Below, piece by piece: positions 4,095 to 21,669 of a stretch of 21,715 bases of DNA. The notes under the pieces were generated by a model. That model ran no database searches, was not told where the DNA came from, and saw only the letters and a program-made list of their open reading frames with translations. The stretch spans positions 1 through 21,715 of the IMG/VR virus record IMGVR_UViG_3300010391_000249; one strand, 5' to 3'. The first letter of the stretch is position 1; every line of letters starts with the position of its first letter. The stretch comes from a virus. Made by a program: the position numbers and the translations under genes.

Positions 4095-4423
4095 CACAGC
4101 ACCTCTTCCTTGCACTGGCAGACGTGCTCGATCTTGAGCCCGTCCGGGTTCAGCACGCTGAGGATTGCCAGCGTGCGGTTGTCCGAGGTCACGAAACGCT
4201 TCTTGGGCGTGAGCCCCGCCAGATAGCGGAGCTCGACGCCCACGGTCACGCCGGCCTCGACCTTCTGGCCGCGCCAGTTTTCGAGGCCCTCGATGTCACT
4301 GACCTTGCAGCGCCGCGTGGTCTCCGCGGCCCAGCTCTGCACCGGTTCGCCGAGGGCGTTGTTCGTGTCGGTGGCCACCTGGATGGTCACCTTGTGGCGA
4401 AACTTGCCTGCACGTGCCGGCAT
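4094..4423 (-). CDS. Head-tail adaptor / head closure protein (SPP1 gp16-like)
   Basis: 109 aa from ATG 4423. The opening PARAGKFRHKVTIQ and the following PVQSWAAETTRRCKVSDIEG, then GQKVEAGVTVGVELRYL and 'TSDNRTLAILSVLNPDG', are the standard five-strand layout of the phage head-tail joining family (HK97 gp7/SPP1 gp16 type), about the usual 105-115 residues. These small beta-barrels bind the connector ring below the portal and close the filled head. The start overlaps the stop of the repeat protein by one base. Synteny agrees: connector upstream, gp10-like downstream. Confidence 0.83.
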   Translation of the reverse strand: MPARAGKFRHKVTIQVATDTNNALGEPVQSWAAETTRRCKVSDIEGLENWRGQKVEAGVTVGVELRYLAGLTPKKRFVTSDNRTLAILSVLNPDGLKIEHVCQCKEEVL

Positions 4424-5961
4424 CAGCGTCTCCTGGGCAGGGCTCCAGCGCGACGGTGCGGGAGACTGCCGGTCAATCGTCTGCCCAGCGTGCCCACGGT
4501 TCGCGGCCCGCCGAAGATCGTCACGGTCGCCTGGATGCTCACGGCCATGACCGTCACGGTCGCCACGCCGGGCATGGCCGTCAGGCTGGCTCCAATCAGA
4601 CTGGCCGCCACGCTCACAGCCGAGACCGTGATCGTCGCCGTCCCTGGGTTCGCGAGCGCTGCACCCGCCGGCGCGGCGCTCACGTCCACGGCGCTAATCG
4701 TCACGATCGCCACGCCCGGCGTTAGCGAGACCGTCCCCGAACCAGTGCCCGCCGGGGCAATGCCGGTGATCGTGATCGTGGCCACGCCTGGAGTGGCCGT
4801 TGCTGTGCCCGTCCCGCTCGCCGTGCCGTCCACGCCCGAGATCGTGACCGTGGCCACGCCCGGCGTCGCGATCAAGGGGCTCGAGGCGTCCGGGGCAACG
4901 CCCGTGATCGTGACCGTGGCCACGCCGGGTACGGCCGTGGCCGTGGCCGTGCCTGTGCCTGCCGGGTCGACGCCCGAGATCGTGATCGTGGCCACACCGG
5001 GAGTCGCCGTCGCCGTGCCCGTGCCGGTCGCGGCGGGGGCGACGCCCGAGATCGTGACCGTGGCCACGCCTGGCGTCGTCGGCGCCGCGCCCGTGGCCGA
5101 GGCCGCGGGGCTGATCCCGCTGATCGTGACCGTGGCCACGCCGGCCGTGGCGGTCGCTGTGCCCGTTCCTGAGCTGGCCGGGGCCACGCCCGTGACCGTG
5201 ACCGTGGCCGTGCCTGGAGTCGCGGTGCCCGTCCCCGTGCCCGAACCCGTGGGCGCTACGCCTGTGATCGTGACCGTCGCGACGCCCGGGGTGCCGGTCT
5301 GGGCCGATGCTGTCGGCTCCAGGGCGAAGAGCACGGAGCACCAGGCATCGGCGGCGGCCTGCGTATCGGTGAAATTGCCGGATGCGCCGGCCGAGGCCTG
5401 CGTCTTGTAGTGGCAAGCCACCGATTGATCGGGGGTGCCCGCCGTGTCCTGATAACAGCTCTGCGTTCCGCCAGCCGTATCCTCGAAGGCCGCGGTAAAG
5501 CCGCTGGGGAGCGTGCTGCGATTGTTGTCGTCTTCGGACCCGTCGCACGCCACCAGCATGCAATTGTCGACGGTGGTTGTGACACCGAGGATTTCGATAC
5601 TGGCATCGACTCCGGTGCTGACTGTGCCCGTCACGTTGACGGGCGAGCCGCTGGTCTTGCAGCCACGGAATGAAGCAATGCCGCCGATCTGGACGGCGGC
5701 GCCGCTGAGGCCGCTCACGGAGAGATTCGGATTGCTGCCCGCGTAGCGAAAGTAGAAAACGGCGATCCGATCCGTGGCCCCGCCGCCGTTGCCCTGGGCG
5801 ATCTGCGTCCAGTCCGTGATGGTGATCGAATCGCTCTGGTTGGAATCGTGGATGTCGGCGATCCAGATGTCGTCGGTCTGCGGCGAGGCTGGCGCGTTCA
5901 AGGTCATAGCGCCGGCGACGGCGACCGCTTCCGCCCCAGCGTTGACGAAGGTGATCGCCAT
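4423..5961 (-). CDS. Virion protein with N-terminal phage beta-domain and eleven 24-residue Thr/Val/Ala-rich repeats
   Basis: 512 aa. Residues 1-215 (MAITFVNAGAEAVAVAG.., DWTQIAQGNGGGATDRIAVFYFR in pieces, IASFRGCKTSGSPV) resemble the beta-sandwich domain common at the start of phage minor structural or fibre proteins. From residue 224 to about 485 come eleven repeats of the type TPGVATVTISGVAP, starting at 224, 248, 272, 296, 320, 344, 366, 390, 414, 438 and 463, so the period is almost exactly 24 residues. The unit predicts a regular strand-loop array and degenerates toward the C-terminus. The last 28 residues are Arg-rich. Likely a surface fibre, spike or decoration protein. It is oddly placed inside the head-tail connector genes. 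No clear Shine-Dalgarno; stop overlaps the adaptor start. Function inferred. Confidence 0.72.
   Translation of the reverse strand: MAITFVNAGAEAVAVAGAMTLNAPASPQTDDIWIADIHDSNQSDSITITDWTQIAQGNGGGATDRIAVFYFRYAGSNPNLSVSGLSGAAVQIGGIASFRGCKTSGSPVNVTGTVSTGVDASIEILGVTTTVDNCMLVACDGSEDDNNRSTLPSGFTAAFEDTAGGTQSCYQDTAGTPDQSVACHYKTQASAGASGNFTDTQAAADAWCSVLFALEPTASAQTGTPGVATVTITGVAPTGSGTGTGTATPGTATVTVTGVAPASSGTGTATATAGVATVTISGISPAASATGAAPTTPGVATVTISGVAPAATGTGTATATPGVATITISGVDPAGTGTATATAVPGVATVTITGVAPDASSPLIATPGVATVTISGVDGTASGTGTATATPGVATITITGIAPAGTGSGTVSLTPGVAIVTISAVDVSAAPAGAALANPGTATITVSAVSVAASLIGASLTAMPGVATVTVMAVSIQATVTIFGGPRTVGTLGRRLTGSLPHRRAGALPRRR
4510..5292 (-). repeat. Tandem coding repeat, 72-bp period, about eleven copies
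   Basis: DNA encoding the 24-residue repeats of the virion protein. The phrase ATCGTGACCGTGGCCACGCC (plus-strand view) recurs with small changes every 72 bp, with one 66-bp and one 75-bp spacing. Copies at the 5' side of the gene are most alike and the 3'-most ones most diverged. Codon-phase conservation shows that the array expands and contracts as coding sequence and is not an intergenic array or CRISPR. Confidence 0.88.
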
Positions 5962-16687: not shown

Positions 16688-16918
16688 ATGTCCGCAGTCT
16701 CCACCACCACCAGCGTCTCGATCACCCACAGCTACACGTGCTACGGTCGTCTGCTCACCGAGCACCGCGCCGGCGCATCCTGGACCGCGCTCGCGACCCG
16801 CGCAGGGATCCCCGAGAGCACCCTCCGCAACAGGGTCAAGCAGGCGCACCAGGTCGAGCGCCTGGGCGAGATCAGCGCCCACTCCTATCTGCGCACCCGC
16901 GGTGTCGTGCTGAGCTAG
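16688..16918 (+). CDS. Small HTH-like protein
   Basis: 76 aa from ATG 16688 (GAAAGG about 10 nt upstream). After a Ser/Thr-rich start, residues about 28-50 (GASWTALATRAGIPESTLRNRV) look like a helix-turn-helix of the 'xxLAxxAGIPxSTLRxRV' kind used by resolvase-like and small regulator proteins. The rest, KQAHQVERLGEISAHSYL, is helical. It may regulate the accessory operon or the divergent terminase genes through the inverted repeats next door. First gene of the operon; a hammerhead ribozyme begins at its stop codon. Confidence 0.6.
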   Translation: MSAVSTTTSVSITHSYTCYGRLLTEHRAGASWTALATRAGIPESTLRNRVKQAHQVERLGEISAHSYLRTRGVVLS

Positions 16919-16996
16919 TCACCCGCTGATGAGGCCCCGGGCGCGGGGCCGAAACGGCGCGCGAGCGCCGTCCGGGACGCACACAGCGCACCGCGG
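16897..16996 (+). ncRNA. Type I hammerhead ribozyme
   Basis: Core read on the plus strand: CTGATGA (16926-16932), stem II GGCCCC (16933-16938) with GGGGCC (16945-16950) and a 6-nt loop, GAAA (16951-16954), stem III CGGCGC (16955-16960) with GCGCCG (16965-16970) closed by a GCGA (GNRA) tetraloop, plus A16954-U16971, and the NUH triplet GUC (16970-16972). Predicted cleavage is after C16972. Stem I is CCCG (16922-16925) with CGGG (16973-16976), and can extend past an internal loop by GTGC (16907-16910)/GCAC (16979-16982) and CCGCGGTG (16897-16904)/CACCGCGG (16989-16996). Every conserved core base is present. Stem I is the open helix, hence type I. Self-cleavage would free the downstream mRNA with a 5'-OH leader of 70 nt before ATG 17043. 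Hammerheads are known in bacterial prophage contexts. Confidence 0.9.
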
Positions 16997-17042
16997 CAAG
17001 TCGGCTCGCCGCGCAAGTGGCCGACAGTCGGAGGATCAAGTC

Positions 17043-17678
17043 ATGCTGAGTACCTTTCTCTCGCGGCGGCCGCACAAGCAGGCCGTCGTCGCCCGCGTCA
17101 AGGCCCTGGGCCGGACGCTCGCCAAGGCGCACCGCCGCTACCAGGGCGGGCTGGCCGCGGAGCGGCAATCCCTCGAGTCGCTGCGAGTGGAGACGGCGCG
17201 GCAGATGCGCGCGGAGTTATTCGGCCGCAAGGGCCGCCGCATCGAGCTGGTGCAGTTGCTGGGGCAGCGCCGAGCGGACGGGCAGCCGGTCTGGGCGCTC
17301 GCCGATCCGGACGCCCAGATCGACGCGCTCAACGGCGCCTGGGACTGGCCGGCTGCTGGCCAGCCGGCGGAGGCCATCATCTACGCGTCGCGGTGGGGGC
17401 GAGTGATCCGGATCCAGGCCGGCCAGGGCGGGCCAGGGTTGCCCACGCTAATCCCCTCGGGAGTGCCGGCTCTCCCCAAGCGCGTGCGCAAGCTGCTCAG
17501 GAGCACTCGCCTGCGCCGGTACGCGGCGTGGGTGGGCGTGCTGTATCAGCCCGAGGAGTGGCGGCGGGCGAACCCCGACCCCGCAGTCGTCGTCGAGTGG
17601 CTCGACCGGCCGGGCGAGTATTACGCCCTGGCCGTCTGGGGCGTTGATCGGCCGTGGATCATGGAGTTCGTGGCGTAG
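17043..17678 (+). CDS. Hypothetical protein, first gene after the ribozyme
   Basis: 211 aa from ATG 17043, with GGAGGA 8 nt upstream. Basic N-terminal helix (LSRRPHKQAVVARVKALGRTLAKAHRRYQGG, in pieces) leads into LESLRVETARQMRAELFG, then a segment with QLLGQRRADGQPVWALADPD and WDWPAAGQPAEAIIYASRWGRVIRI, and ends RYAAWVGVLYQPEEWRRANPD and PGEYYALAVWGVDRPWIMEF. Trp/Arg-rich, soluble, no known catalytic motif. The mRNA begins, if the ribozyme cuts, 70 nt before the start; a GTCGGC/GCCGAC stem (17000-17005/17020-17025) lies between. Function unknown. Confidence 0.72.
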   Translation: MLSTFLSRRPHKQAVVARVKALGRTLAKAHRRYQGGLAAERQSLESLRVETARQMRAELFGRKGRRIELVQLLGQRRADGQPVWALADPDAQIDALNGAWDWPAAGQPAEAIIYASRWGRVIRIQAGQGGPGLPTLIPSGVPALPKRVRKLLRSTRLRRYAAWVGVLYQPEEWRRANPDPAVVVEWLDRPGEYYALAVWGVDRPWIMEFVA

Positions 17679-17734: not shown

Positions 17735-17962
17735 ATGAATCTCGACCGCTTCCTCGACCTCGACCAGTGGGACGAGTCGCGCGGTTTCGGTTCGGTCCAC
17801 GGCCCGATCTGTCCCTACTGCGAGCAATCCTTGCCGCGCTCCGCGTGCGGAGCGCACGGGATCGCGGAGTGTACACACTGTCACAGGCGACTCGCCTGGC
17901 AACTGCTCAGCACGCCGCTCGGTCAGGCGTGGCAGACCTGGAGGCGACTGCCGCAACATTAG
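17735..17962 (+). CDS. Small zinc-ribbon protein
   Basis: 75 aa from ATG 17735 (GGAGGG 5 nt upstream); a longer frame beginning within the hairpin is rejected. Cys26 and Cys29 (CPYC) and Cys46 and Cys49 (CTHC) form a CxxC-x16-CxxC zinc knuckle, with His50. An N-terminal acidic helix (LDRFLDLDQWDE) and a helical C-terminus (LAWQLLSTPLGQAWQTW) flank it. Such ribbons bind nucleic acid or proteins. Gene ends 9 nt before the next start. Confidence 0.68.
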   Translation: MNLDRFLDLDQWDESRGFGSVHGPICPYCEQSLPRSACGAHGIAECTHCHRRLAWQLLSTPLGQAWQTWRRLPQH

Positions 17963-19950: not shown

Positions 19951-21669
19951 TCAGAGTACGCCGAACTGCTTGGCCTCGGCCGGGCGGGGTGGGCCCACGT
20001 ACTGGAAGCCGGCGGTCAGGCGCTGGTAGGTCGAGGTCTTGGCAGCGATCGAGGTGCTGGCGCCTGGTAGCGCGCTGAACGATGGCGCACGCAGCATTTC
20101 CCAGAGGGGCGAGTGCATGCGATGGCGGATCATCGCCGGGTGGCTCGTCGTCGAGCGGTAGTGCTTTTTTGTAGCCACAAACAGACCCGCAACGAACTCG
20201 CTCATGGCGTTGCCGAGGCCGACGCCCTGAAAGTCGGGCAGGCAGACGGTGCGGTGTTCGCGCCACCAGCCGTCATTCCAGTGCGGCTGGTGCAGCACGG
20301 CGGTGAAGGCGGCGGGTCGGCCGTTCACTTCGCCCAGGAAACACTTGGCGGCGCGGTTCAGATCGTGGTCTAGATAGTGATGCGGACTGAAGAGCCGCCA
20401 TGCCGCTGTGTCAACCCGACGAATTGAAAGCTGAATTGGTGGGCGTCGTTGAAGTGACCTCCAGGCAAATTCGCCACTCGCCGCATCGTAGCGCCAGTCG
20501 GGCTGGAGCCAGTCTTCGACGTCGTAATGACAGGTCACCGCCACAAAGCGCCGGTTAGATGCGCGGATGGTCTTGGCCAGGGCGGCCGAGGCGATCTGGG
20601 CCACGGTGCGATCGACGACGCTGGTGAACTCGTCGACGACGGCTAGGTCGGGGGCCTCGGCCAGGGTGCGGGCCAGGTTGACGCGGAACTGCTCGCCGTT
20701 GGAAAGCACGTGGAAGGGCTTGAGCCATGAGGGTGGGCTGGAGAAGCCGATCGCCGAGAGCAGGCCGACGATCTCGTGAATGGACTGGGCGGCGGGGAAG
20801 CCGTCGAGGATGGCCTTGTCCTTGGGCCAGTCCCAGCCGTCGACGAGCTGCTTGCCGAAGAGCTCGCGGGCGATGGTGGTTTTCCCCGAGCCGGACGGGC
20901 CGACGATGAGGCCGAGGTTCCAGGGCTTGTCGAGCTGGAGGTCGACCGTCCAGGAGTGTTCGCGGCGCTTCGCCGGCGGCACATCGAAGAGGCCCTCGAG
21001 CTGGCGGACGCGCGGGGTGCGGGCGATCGCACTGGCGCGGGTGATCTTCCGGGCGGTGGCGGCGAGCGGTTTCTCCTTGGCGGGTCGCTTGATCTTCTCC
21101 GTGGCGGGGAAGCCGGCGATCACGGCGCGGGCGTCGAGGTCGTGGCGGGCGAGCTCCTTCAGGATCGCGACCTGGTCGGCCTCGGTGGCACAGTCCAGGA
21201 CGATGGAGTAGCGGAGGGCGAGGTCCTCGGGGTTGATCTTGGGGCGCTGGGCGGCGCTGGACCCGGCGGGCGGGGTGAGGAGATCGCGGATTGATTTGCT
21301 GCTGGTCTGTACGTCGGCCAGGAGCGTGTCGAGTGCGGCCTTGCTGGTGGTGGCCATGGCGGTGAGCGGGTCGAAGGTGGCGAGGATCTCCTTCTCCTGG
21401 GGCTCGTCCCAGGAGCCGATCAGGACGGGGATCGGCTGATCAGGCGTGGCGTCGGCGAGCCGTTTGCGCATGTGGCCGTCGATCAGCCGCTTACTTTTCT
21501 CGTTGTACAGGACGGCGCCGGCCCAGCCGACCTCGCCGAGCAGATCCTTGAGCGCGGCCTGCTGGGCCTCCGGGTGCTCACGCCAGTTGGCGGGGTTTTC
21601 CGCCAGCTCGGCGGGCAGCCGGTACTCGAGCCGCAGCCGTTTGGGTGCCGCGGGTTTCTTTCGTGTCAT
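19951..21669 (-). CDS. Three-domain fusion: ParB-like, ABC ATPase, GNAT acyltransferase
   Basis: 572 aa from ATG 21669. Residues 14-135 look like a phage ParB/Srx-type domain (YRLPAELAENPANWREH, LIDGHMRKRLADA with the GHxR box at 65-68, PIPVLIG). Residues 225-405 form a compact ABC ATPase: Walker A GPSGSGKT (257-264), signature LSNGEQ (322-327), Walker B LAVVDEF (342-348) with Glu347, and H-loop His381 (TCHYD). Residues 410-560 look like a GNAT domain: FSPHHYL (427-433), GEVNGRPAAFTAVLH and CoA-loop QGVGLG (481-486). ABC plus acetyltransferase fusion recalls the COG2401 type; a fused ParB part is one I do not know. Role is inferred: DNA- or RNA-modifying acyl transfer, perhaps in Mu Mom style. 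Preceded by poly-G Shine-Dalgarno-like tract. Confidence 0.8.
   Translation of the reverse strand: MTRKKPAAPKRLRLEYRLPAELAENPANWREHPEAQQAALKDLLGEVGWAGAVLYNEKSKRLIDGHMRKRLADATPDQPIPVLIGSWDEPQEKEILATFDPLTAMATTSKAALDTLLADVQTSSKSIRDLLTPPAGSSAAQRPKINPEDLALRYSIVLDCATEADQVAILKELARHDLDARAVIAGFPATEKIKRPAKEKPLAATARKITRASAIARTPRVRQLEGLFDVPPAKRREHSWTVDLQLDKPWNLGLIVGPSGSGKTTIARELFGKQLVDGWDWPKDKAILDGFPAAQSIHEIVGLLSAIGFSSPPSWLKPFHVLSNGEQFRVNLARTLAEAPDLAVVDEFTSVVDRTVAQIASAALAKTIRASNRRFVAVTCHYDVEDWLQPDWRYDAASGEFAWRSLQRRPPIQLSIRRVDTAAWRLFSPHHYLDHDLNRAAKCFLGEVNGRPAAFTAVLHQPHWNDGWWREHRTVCLPDFQGVGLGNAMSEFVAGLFVATKKHYRSTTSHPAMIRHRMHSPLWEMLRAPSFSALPGASTSIAAKTSTYQRLTAGFQYVGPPRPAEAKQFGVL

Follow-up and report, generated by a model that had tools for sequence, protein, structure and literature searches.

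The plus strand of the window, meaning the whole stretch of 21,715 bases (66% GC) that was analysed and that makes up an entire IMG/VR virus record, encodes at positions 16922-16980 what is, by its letters, a hammerhead ribozyme of type I, in which none of the invariant core letters is missing. It is quite probably a functional member of the hammerhead family of phages, which would cut the message between the gene of a 76-aa helix-turn-helix (HTH) protein and a 211-aa gene. The ribozyme adds one more case to the known type I hammerheads of phages, within a GC-rich subfamily not recovered by Rfam. Most simply, the transcript would be cut between two cistrons, with no reading frame damaged.

The record may be part of a larger phage genome. 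Genes for the terminase, portal and capsid are located on the minus strand, and the plus strand carries a set of small accessory genes from 16688 onward. The HTH gene has a third-position GC of 0.91, and its protein shows weak HTH matches (an IclR/AsnC-type HTH below the cut-off; the transcriptional repressor phrog_4583 with E 3.6e-4). The 211-aa protein is without a match in Pfam, PHROG and NCBIfam, and its predicted structure was discarded as too poor for use (mean pLDDT 49.8). Between the HTH stop and the start of the 211-aa gene there are 124 nt, with the ribozyme at the stop end of this spacer. Since no promoter or terminator was found near these genes by simple consensus scans, their position on one transcript is deduced from spacing and direction. 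Reading the ribozyme hairpins as a terminator was rejected, because a T-rich tail is absent.

Other genes of the record were also noted. In the same operon, 17735-17962 (plus strand) encodes a 75-aa protein, likely a zinc ribbon, whose two CxxC pairs are CPYC and CTHC. The minus strand at 19951-21669 encodes a 572-aa protein that begins ParB-like, continues as an ABC-type ATPase and finishes GNAT-like, with a strong match to PHROG 11143, a family of unknown function. A tandem repeat of 72 nt and multiples (4731-5289) encodes TPGVATVTISGVAP-like repeats within a protein predicted on the minus strand (4423-5961).

The features of the locus are the following:

16688-16918, plus strand: gene of the 76-aa HTH protein, 5' of the ribozyme (open reading frame; stop TAG at 16916-16918)
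16922-16925, plus strand: 5' strand of stem I, CCCG, pairing with 16973-16976 (fold and relatives)
16926-16932, plus strand: catalytic core CUGAUGA (sequence, descriptor and covariance model)
16933-16950, plus strand: stem II of 7 bp, GGCCCCG with CGGGGCC, and its loop GGCG at 16940-16943 (fold and subfamily alignment)
16951-16954, plus strand: catalytic core GAAA, the last A pairing with U16971 (sequence, descriptor and covariance model)
16955-16970, plus strand: stem III of 6 bp, CGGCGC with GCGCCG, and its GNRA tetraloop GCGA at 16961-16964 (fold)
16970-16972, plus strand: cleavage triplet GUC, which includes the UC that follows stem III, with the predicted cut between 16972 and 16973 (sequence and model alignment)
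16973-16976, plus strand: 3' strand of the 4-bp stem I, CGGG, followed by a single A (fold and subfamily alignment)
16978-16980, plus strand: CGC in the internal loop of stem I, predicted to form a pseudoknot with GCG of loop II at 16941-16943 (subfamily pairs and triplet covariation)
17043-17678, plus strand: 211-aa gene, 3' of the ribozyme (open reading frame; Shine-Dalgarno-like GGAGGAT at 17030-17036)

The core follows the type I pattern, with CUGANGA at 16926-16932, GAAA at 16951-16954 and UH at 16971-16972. The layout is also that of type I: a loop closes each of stems II and III, and both the 5' and the 3' ends are in stem I. The minimum free energy folds of 16893-17003 and of 16920-16980 are the hammerhead three-way junction, and their z-scores are modest (-1.4 and -2.0, respectively) because the region is GC-rich. 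The core letters, their coordinates, the GNRA loop and the 7 nt from the HTH stop to the core, all described in the earlier note, can be read directly from the sequence, and the cut that it placed after C16972 agrees with both the sequence and the model alignment. Its central proposal, a type I hammerhead whose cleavage would part the HTH and 211-aa messages, gains support from the sequence, the covariance models and the relatives.

The bare core pattern with loose gaps is not rare, found by chance in 17% of shuffles (0.2 expected per window), and therefore it is the stems that matter. The full descriptor, which combines the core with three stems, each 3 bp or longer, has one match in the window, and 12 Mb of first-order Markov sequence with equal composition contain none. 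A second hammerhead was not found in the record, even with relaxed (one-mismatch) cores; a model match of 12-13 bits at 579-616 of the minus strand is noise. With this single copy, the record shows neither the two flanking hammerheads nor the tandem copies of a circular-RNA or retrozyme-type element.

Covariance searches, suggested earlier as a check with the Rfam models, gave two different answers depending on the models. In Rfam release 15 nothing matched the window at gathering score; the best match below it is Hammerhead_3 (20.7 bits, in the wrong register), and RF00163 Hammerhead_1, with its gathering score of 34 bits, gives none even at E 10. The same gathering scores matched 0 of 16 stretches with clear phage hammerheads (L038, L060, L130, L134, L153, L150, L136, L139, L144, L015 and L037 are among those missed). 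For instance, the three perfect hammerheads of L037 score 25-30 bits with RF00163, for which the cut-off is 34. The miss in the window reflects a limit of the Rfam models, whose cut-offs pass over many phage hammerheads and thus lead to an underestimate of their number. Models of phage hammerheads, from which the window was excluded, do recover the ribozyme: R1 (24 hammerheads of constant length) at 25.0 bits with E 1.2e-4, and the wider R2 (113 matches) at 46.1 bits with E 9.1e-11, the next best match in the window having 13 bits. These E-values are rough because the calibration was short, and the argument is carried by the bit scores and the gap to 13 bits. In 295 kb of related phages R2 found no match.

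A pattern scan of IMG/VR that left both loop II and the 3' flank free returned at least 120 stretches, most of them hammerheads with closed stems. In a second scan of IMG/VR, the GC-rich subfamily was found in 38 stretches from metagenomic phages, with stem I CCCN/NGGG, a stem II of 6-7 bp, loop II GGCG or GGCA and A-Y-GC after stem I; since NGGGANGC on the 3' side was part of the search pattern, the features that count as independent in this subfamily are limited to loop II, the stems and the 5' strand of stem I. The subfamily pattern occurs 0 times in the bacterial and archaeal genomes searched. In the alignment of 17 subfamily members (window included) 98.7% of the cells are paired, versus 24-46% when the partners are slid. 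The respective values for the family alignment A3 (111 distinct phage hammerheads, among the matches listed) are 97.5% and 32-39%, with pair counts that lean towards the model structure to which A3 was fitted. Compensatory changes in the stems are found at the level of both the family and the subfamily.

The genes next to phage hammerheads are mostly unrelated to each other, with 104 clusters of 122 upstream and 136 clusters of 161 downstream (both among the matches listed). Since the identity of the flanking genes varies, the role of the hammerheads appears to be general. Seven phage contig stretches (L121, L085, L134, L139, L063, L037 and L086) carry 3-5 type I hammerheads each, strung along successive genes, and thus whole operons appear to be segmented. 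Among named phage records, none with two hammerhead-bearing stretches was found. Candidate type III hammerheads, near type I ones or alone, are located in five phage contigs (L016, L026, L045, L110 and L115).

Loop II and the internal loop of stem I are supported as forming a predicted pseudoknot of 3 bp in the window, with covariation in the relatives. In detail, the window's triplets GCG and CGC would pair as G16941-C16980, C16942-G16979 and G16943-C16978. Among the matches listed from the first scan, a complementary triplet is present in 24 of the 47 hammerheads with a long loop II (window included), versus 11.1 +/- 2.3 with permuted flanks (maximum 17), and the kinds of triplet differ (GGC:GCC, GGA:UCC, GGU:ACC, GGG:CCC and GCG:CGC). 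Pseudoknots between stems I and II have been reported previously, one of them tested by mutation (Perreault et al. 2011, PMC3088659). The earlier note had pointed to the internal loop of stem I as the usual site of tertiary contact with loop II, in a possible long stem I whose outer part lies in the HTH coding sequence. The contact is supported as this short predicted pseudoknot, but the long helix is not. The outer helix (16897-16910 with about 16985-17000) can be drawn, with z -1.9 in a plain shuffle, but equally good pairing arises in 807 of 2000 dinucleotide-shuffled flanks, and it is not a trait of the family: across 182 phage hammerheads (among the matches listed) no outer helix was found (mean z 0.05).

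About half of the phage type I hammerheads lie just past the stop codon of the upstream gene. The placement was examined in 175 unique hammerheads (among the matches listed) by tracing the longest open frame 90 nt upstream to its stop; the genes are thus open frames, some of the stops at the UGA of the core may be spurious and the contigs share descent. With frames of at least 70 codons, the stop ends 0-11 nt before the core in 53% of 146 (among the matches listed), versus 2.5% of random points by the same measure. In the unbiased scan with the same frame length, the stop is located 4-12 nt before the core in 51 of 107, and in 25 of 107 the UGA of the core itself terminates the frame; with at least 100 codons these are 29/57 and 13/57 (all among the matches listed). 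The commonest single arrangement is a stop that directly abuts stem I (41 of 123, among the matches listed). Family-wide (L010-L129), the UGA within the catalytic core ends the upstream frame in about a quarter of cases, and it may serve as stop codon and core at once. The distance of 7 nt in the window is typical, so the position at the stop codon to which the earlier note drew attention stands, but it is usual for phage type I hammerheads and not peculiar to the HTH gene.

The spacers themselves were also compared. For hammerheads with an in-frame stop near the core as well as a start preceded by a ribosome-binding site, the median distance from stop to start is 82 nt and the cut is located at a median of 35 nt before the start. 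In spacers of at least 110 nt, 27 of 51 hammerheads are within 12 nt of the stop versus 7.3 expected under uniform placement, with no comparable pull to the start codon (15 versus 12.5 expected). The placement at the stop is usual for phage type I hammerheads, and its cause should therefore be sought in the whole family, whether or not that cause is gating by the ribosome; the placement hints at what these hammerheads do. No mention of the tie to the stop codon was found in the openly searchable literature, outside which most subscription papers and preprints fall, and the text of Perreault et al. 2011 (PMC3088659) has 0 occurrences of 'stop codon'.

From the motif, its scores in the models, the covariation of the family and the placement after the stop, all of them observed, we infer cleavage, protection of the ends and separate expression of the two genes. 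The ribozyme would be transcribed within the accessory operon of the plus strand, fold once the 3' strand of stem I is made and then cut after C16972. The HTH message would end with a complete frame, its stop codon, the highly stable hairpins of stems II and III, and UC bearing a 2',3'-cyclic phosphate. A 5'-OH leader of 70 nt would open the 211-aa message, with its own ribosome-binding site 57 nt on. Ends with a 5'-OH, or with a hairpin and a cyclic phosphate, should be poor entry points for the common decay enzymes. The outcome would be two messages of separate fate out of one transcript, with the reading frames unharmed. The nearly complete lack of relation among the flanking genes fits such a general processing device.

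A chance resemblance of GC-rich hairpins to a hammerhead could be suspected from the composition of the region and the modest generic fold z-scores. It is extremely improbable in view of the empty 12 Mb of matched random sequence, the 46 bits scored with a model of hammerheads from other phages, in which the next best match has 13, and the letters of loop II and the internal loop, which are common to an independent subfamily. A decayed or inactive hammerhead, left as a remnant of gene exchange, is quite improbable, although the ribozyme has a single copy in the record and is absent from the relatives. In detail, the closest terminase relatives are without the HTH and 211-aa genes and without the ribozyme. 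The sole relative of the 211-aa gene (L001, 47% identical) has a matching spacer in which the hammerhead core is missing (CUGANGA absent). An orthologous locus with the same gene pair was not found, nor were relatives of the 270-aa gene; the HTH protein match in L003 covers 20 residues only, and the genes of the locus have no relatives in 50,697 phage records or in the genome collection. Against decay, the invariant core, three perfect stems and the contact of loop II with stem I seen in the subfamily are all kept. In that spacer of L001 (4804-4901) there are instead two very strong hairpins (fold z -5.4), with CGAAAC before the second. These hairpins, the lack of an orthologous locus, the Rfam scores below the cut-offs and the single copy weigh against the preferred reading of a functional ribozyme.

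The position at the stop could also result from mere packing, in which short spacers are filled by a hammerhead of about 55 nt and a ribosome-binding site with no tie to translation or to the end of the message. The median spacer of 82 nt is about that size; however, the ribozyme keeps to the stop in the spacers of at least 110 nt, as it does in the 124-nt spacer of the window, and packing is thus considered unlikely. Another cause, suggested for the HTH gene by the earlier note and here extended tentatively to the whole family, is that the terminating ribosome blocks folding until the upstream frame is finished and the ribosome is gone. A ribosome halted at a stop codon occupies about 9-10 nt beyond it. 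Here that footprint would take in the whole 5' strand of stem I together with the first letters of the core, and the ribozyme would be foldable only after the ribosome leaves. Possibly, the cut would then mark translated messages and end the coupling between neighbouring genes. The 7 nt of the window, the family-wide distances, the core-UGA stops, the stops abutting stem I and the pull to the stop in long spacers all point in this direction. However, placement is an association only, cotranscriptional cleavage may precede any ribosome, a part of the core-UGA class may consist of spurious frames (as in the window, where a 63-aa frame also ends at the core), and the UAA or UAG in many internal loops of stem I could be a tertiary-contact motif that doubles as a stop by coincidence. 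It is regarded as rather doubtful that the type I hammerheads of phages, taken as a class, act as stop-codon devices, with the 5' strand or the UGA core held by the terminating ribosome. If true, the end of translation would set the time of cutting, and the cleaved messages would always end in a finished frame.

The preferred reading remains the cut between the HTH and 211-aa genes that leaves every frame intact. The function of bacterial and phage hammerheads has been a standing question since 2010-2011. A tie to the upstream stop and not to the next start, even in long spacers, narrows it to the end of the translated message. The choices that remain are a protected 3' end, the breaking of coupling and timing by the ribosome, which can be tested with simple mutants.

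Among known systems, the GC-rich hammerheads of IMG/VR (for example L038, L060, L076, L134 and L153) are alike in stem I CCCN/NGGG, loop II GGCG/GGCA and A-Y-GC; a stop triplet is usually located just 5' of their stem I and a ribosome-binding site often 3', whereas their flanking genes are unrelated to those of the window. RF00163 Hammerhead_1 has the same type of architecture but expects a stem I of 6 bp and other lengths, versus the 4 bp of the window. The type I hammerheads of bacteria and prophages described by Perreault et al. 2011 (PMC3088659) share the core, the open stem I, the pseudoknot between stems I and II and the changing phage neighbours, and the window differs from them in its GC-rich subfamily, a stem I of only 4 bp, the loop GGCG and the single copy. 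In the same work it was proposed that long phage transcripts are cut into mRNAs of operon or gene length, and the general role suggested here for phage hammerheads agrees with that proposal.
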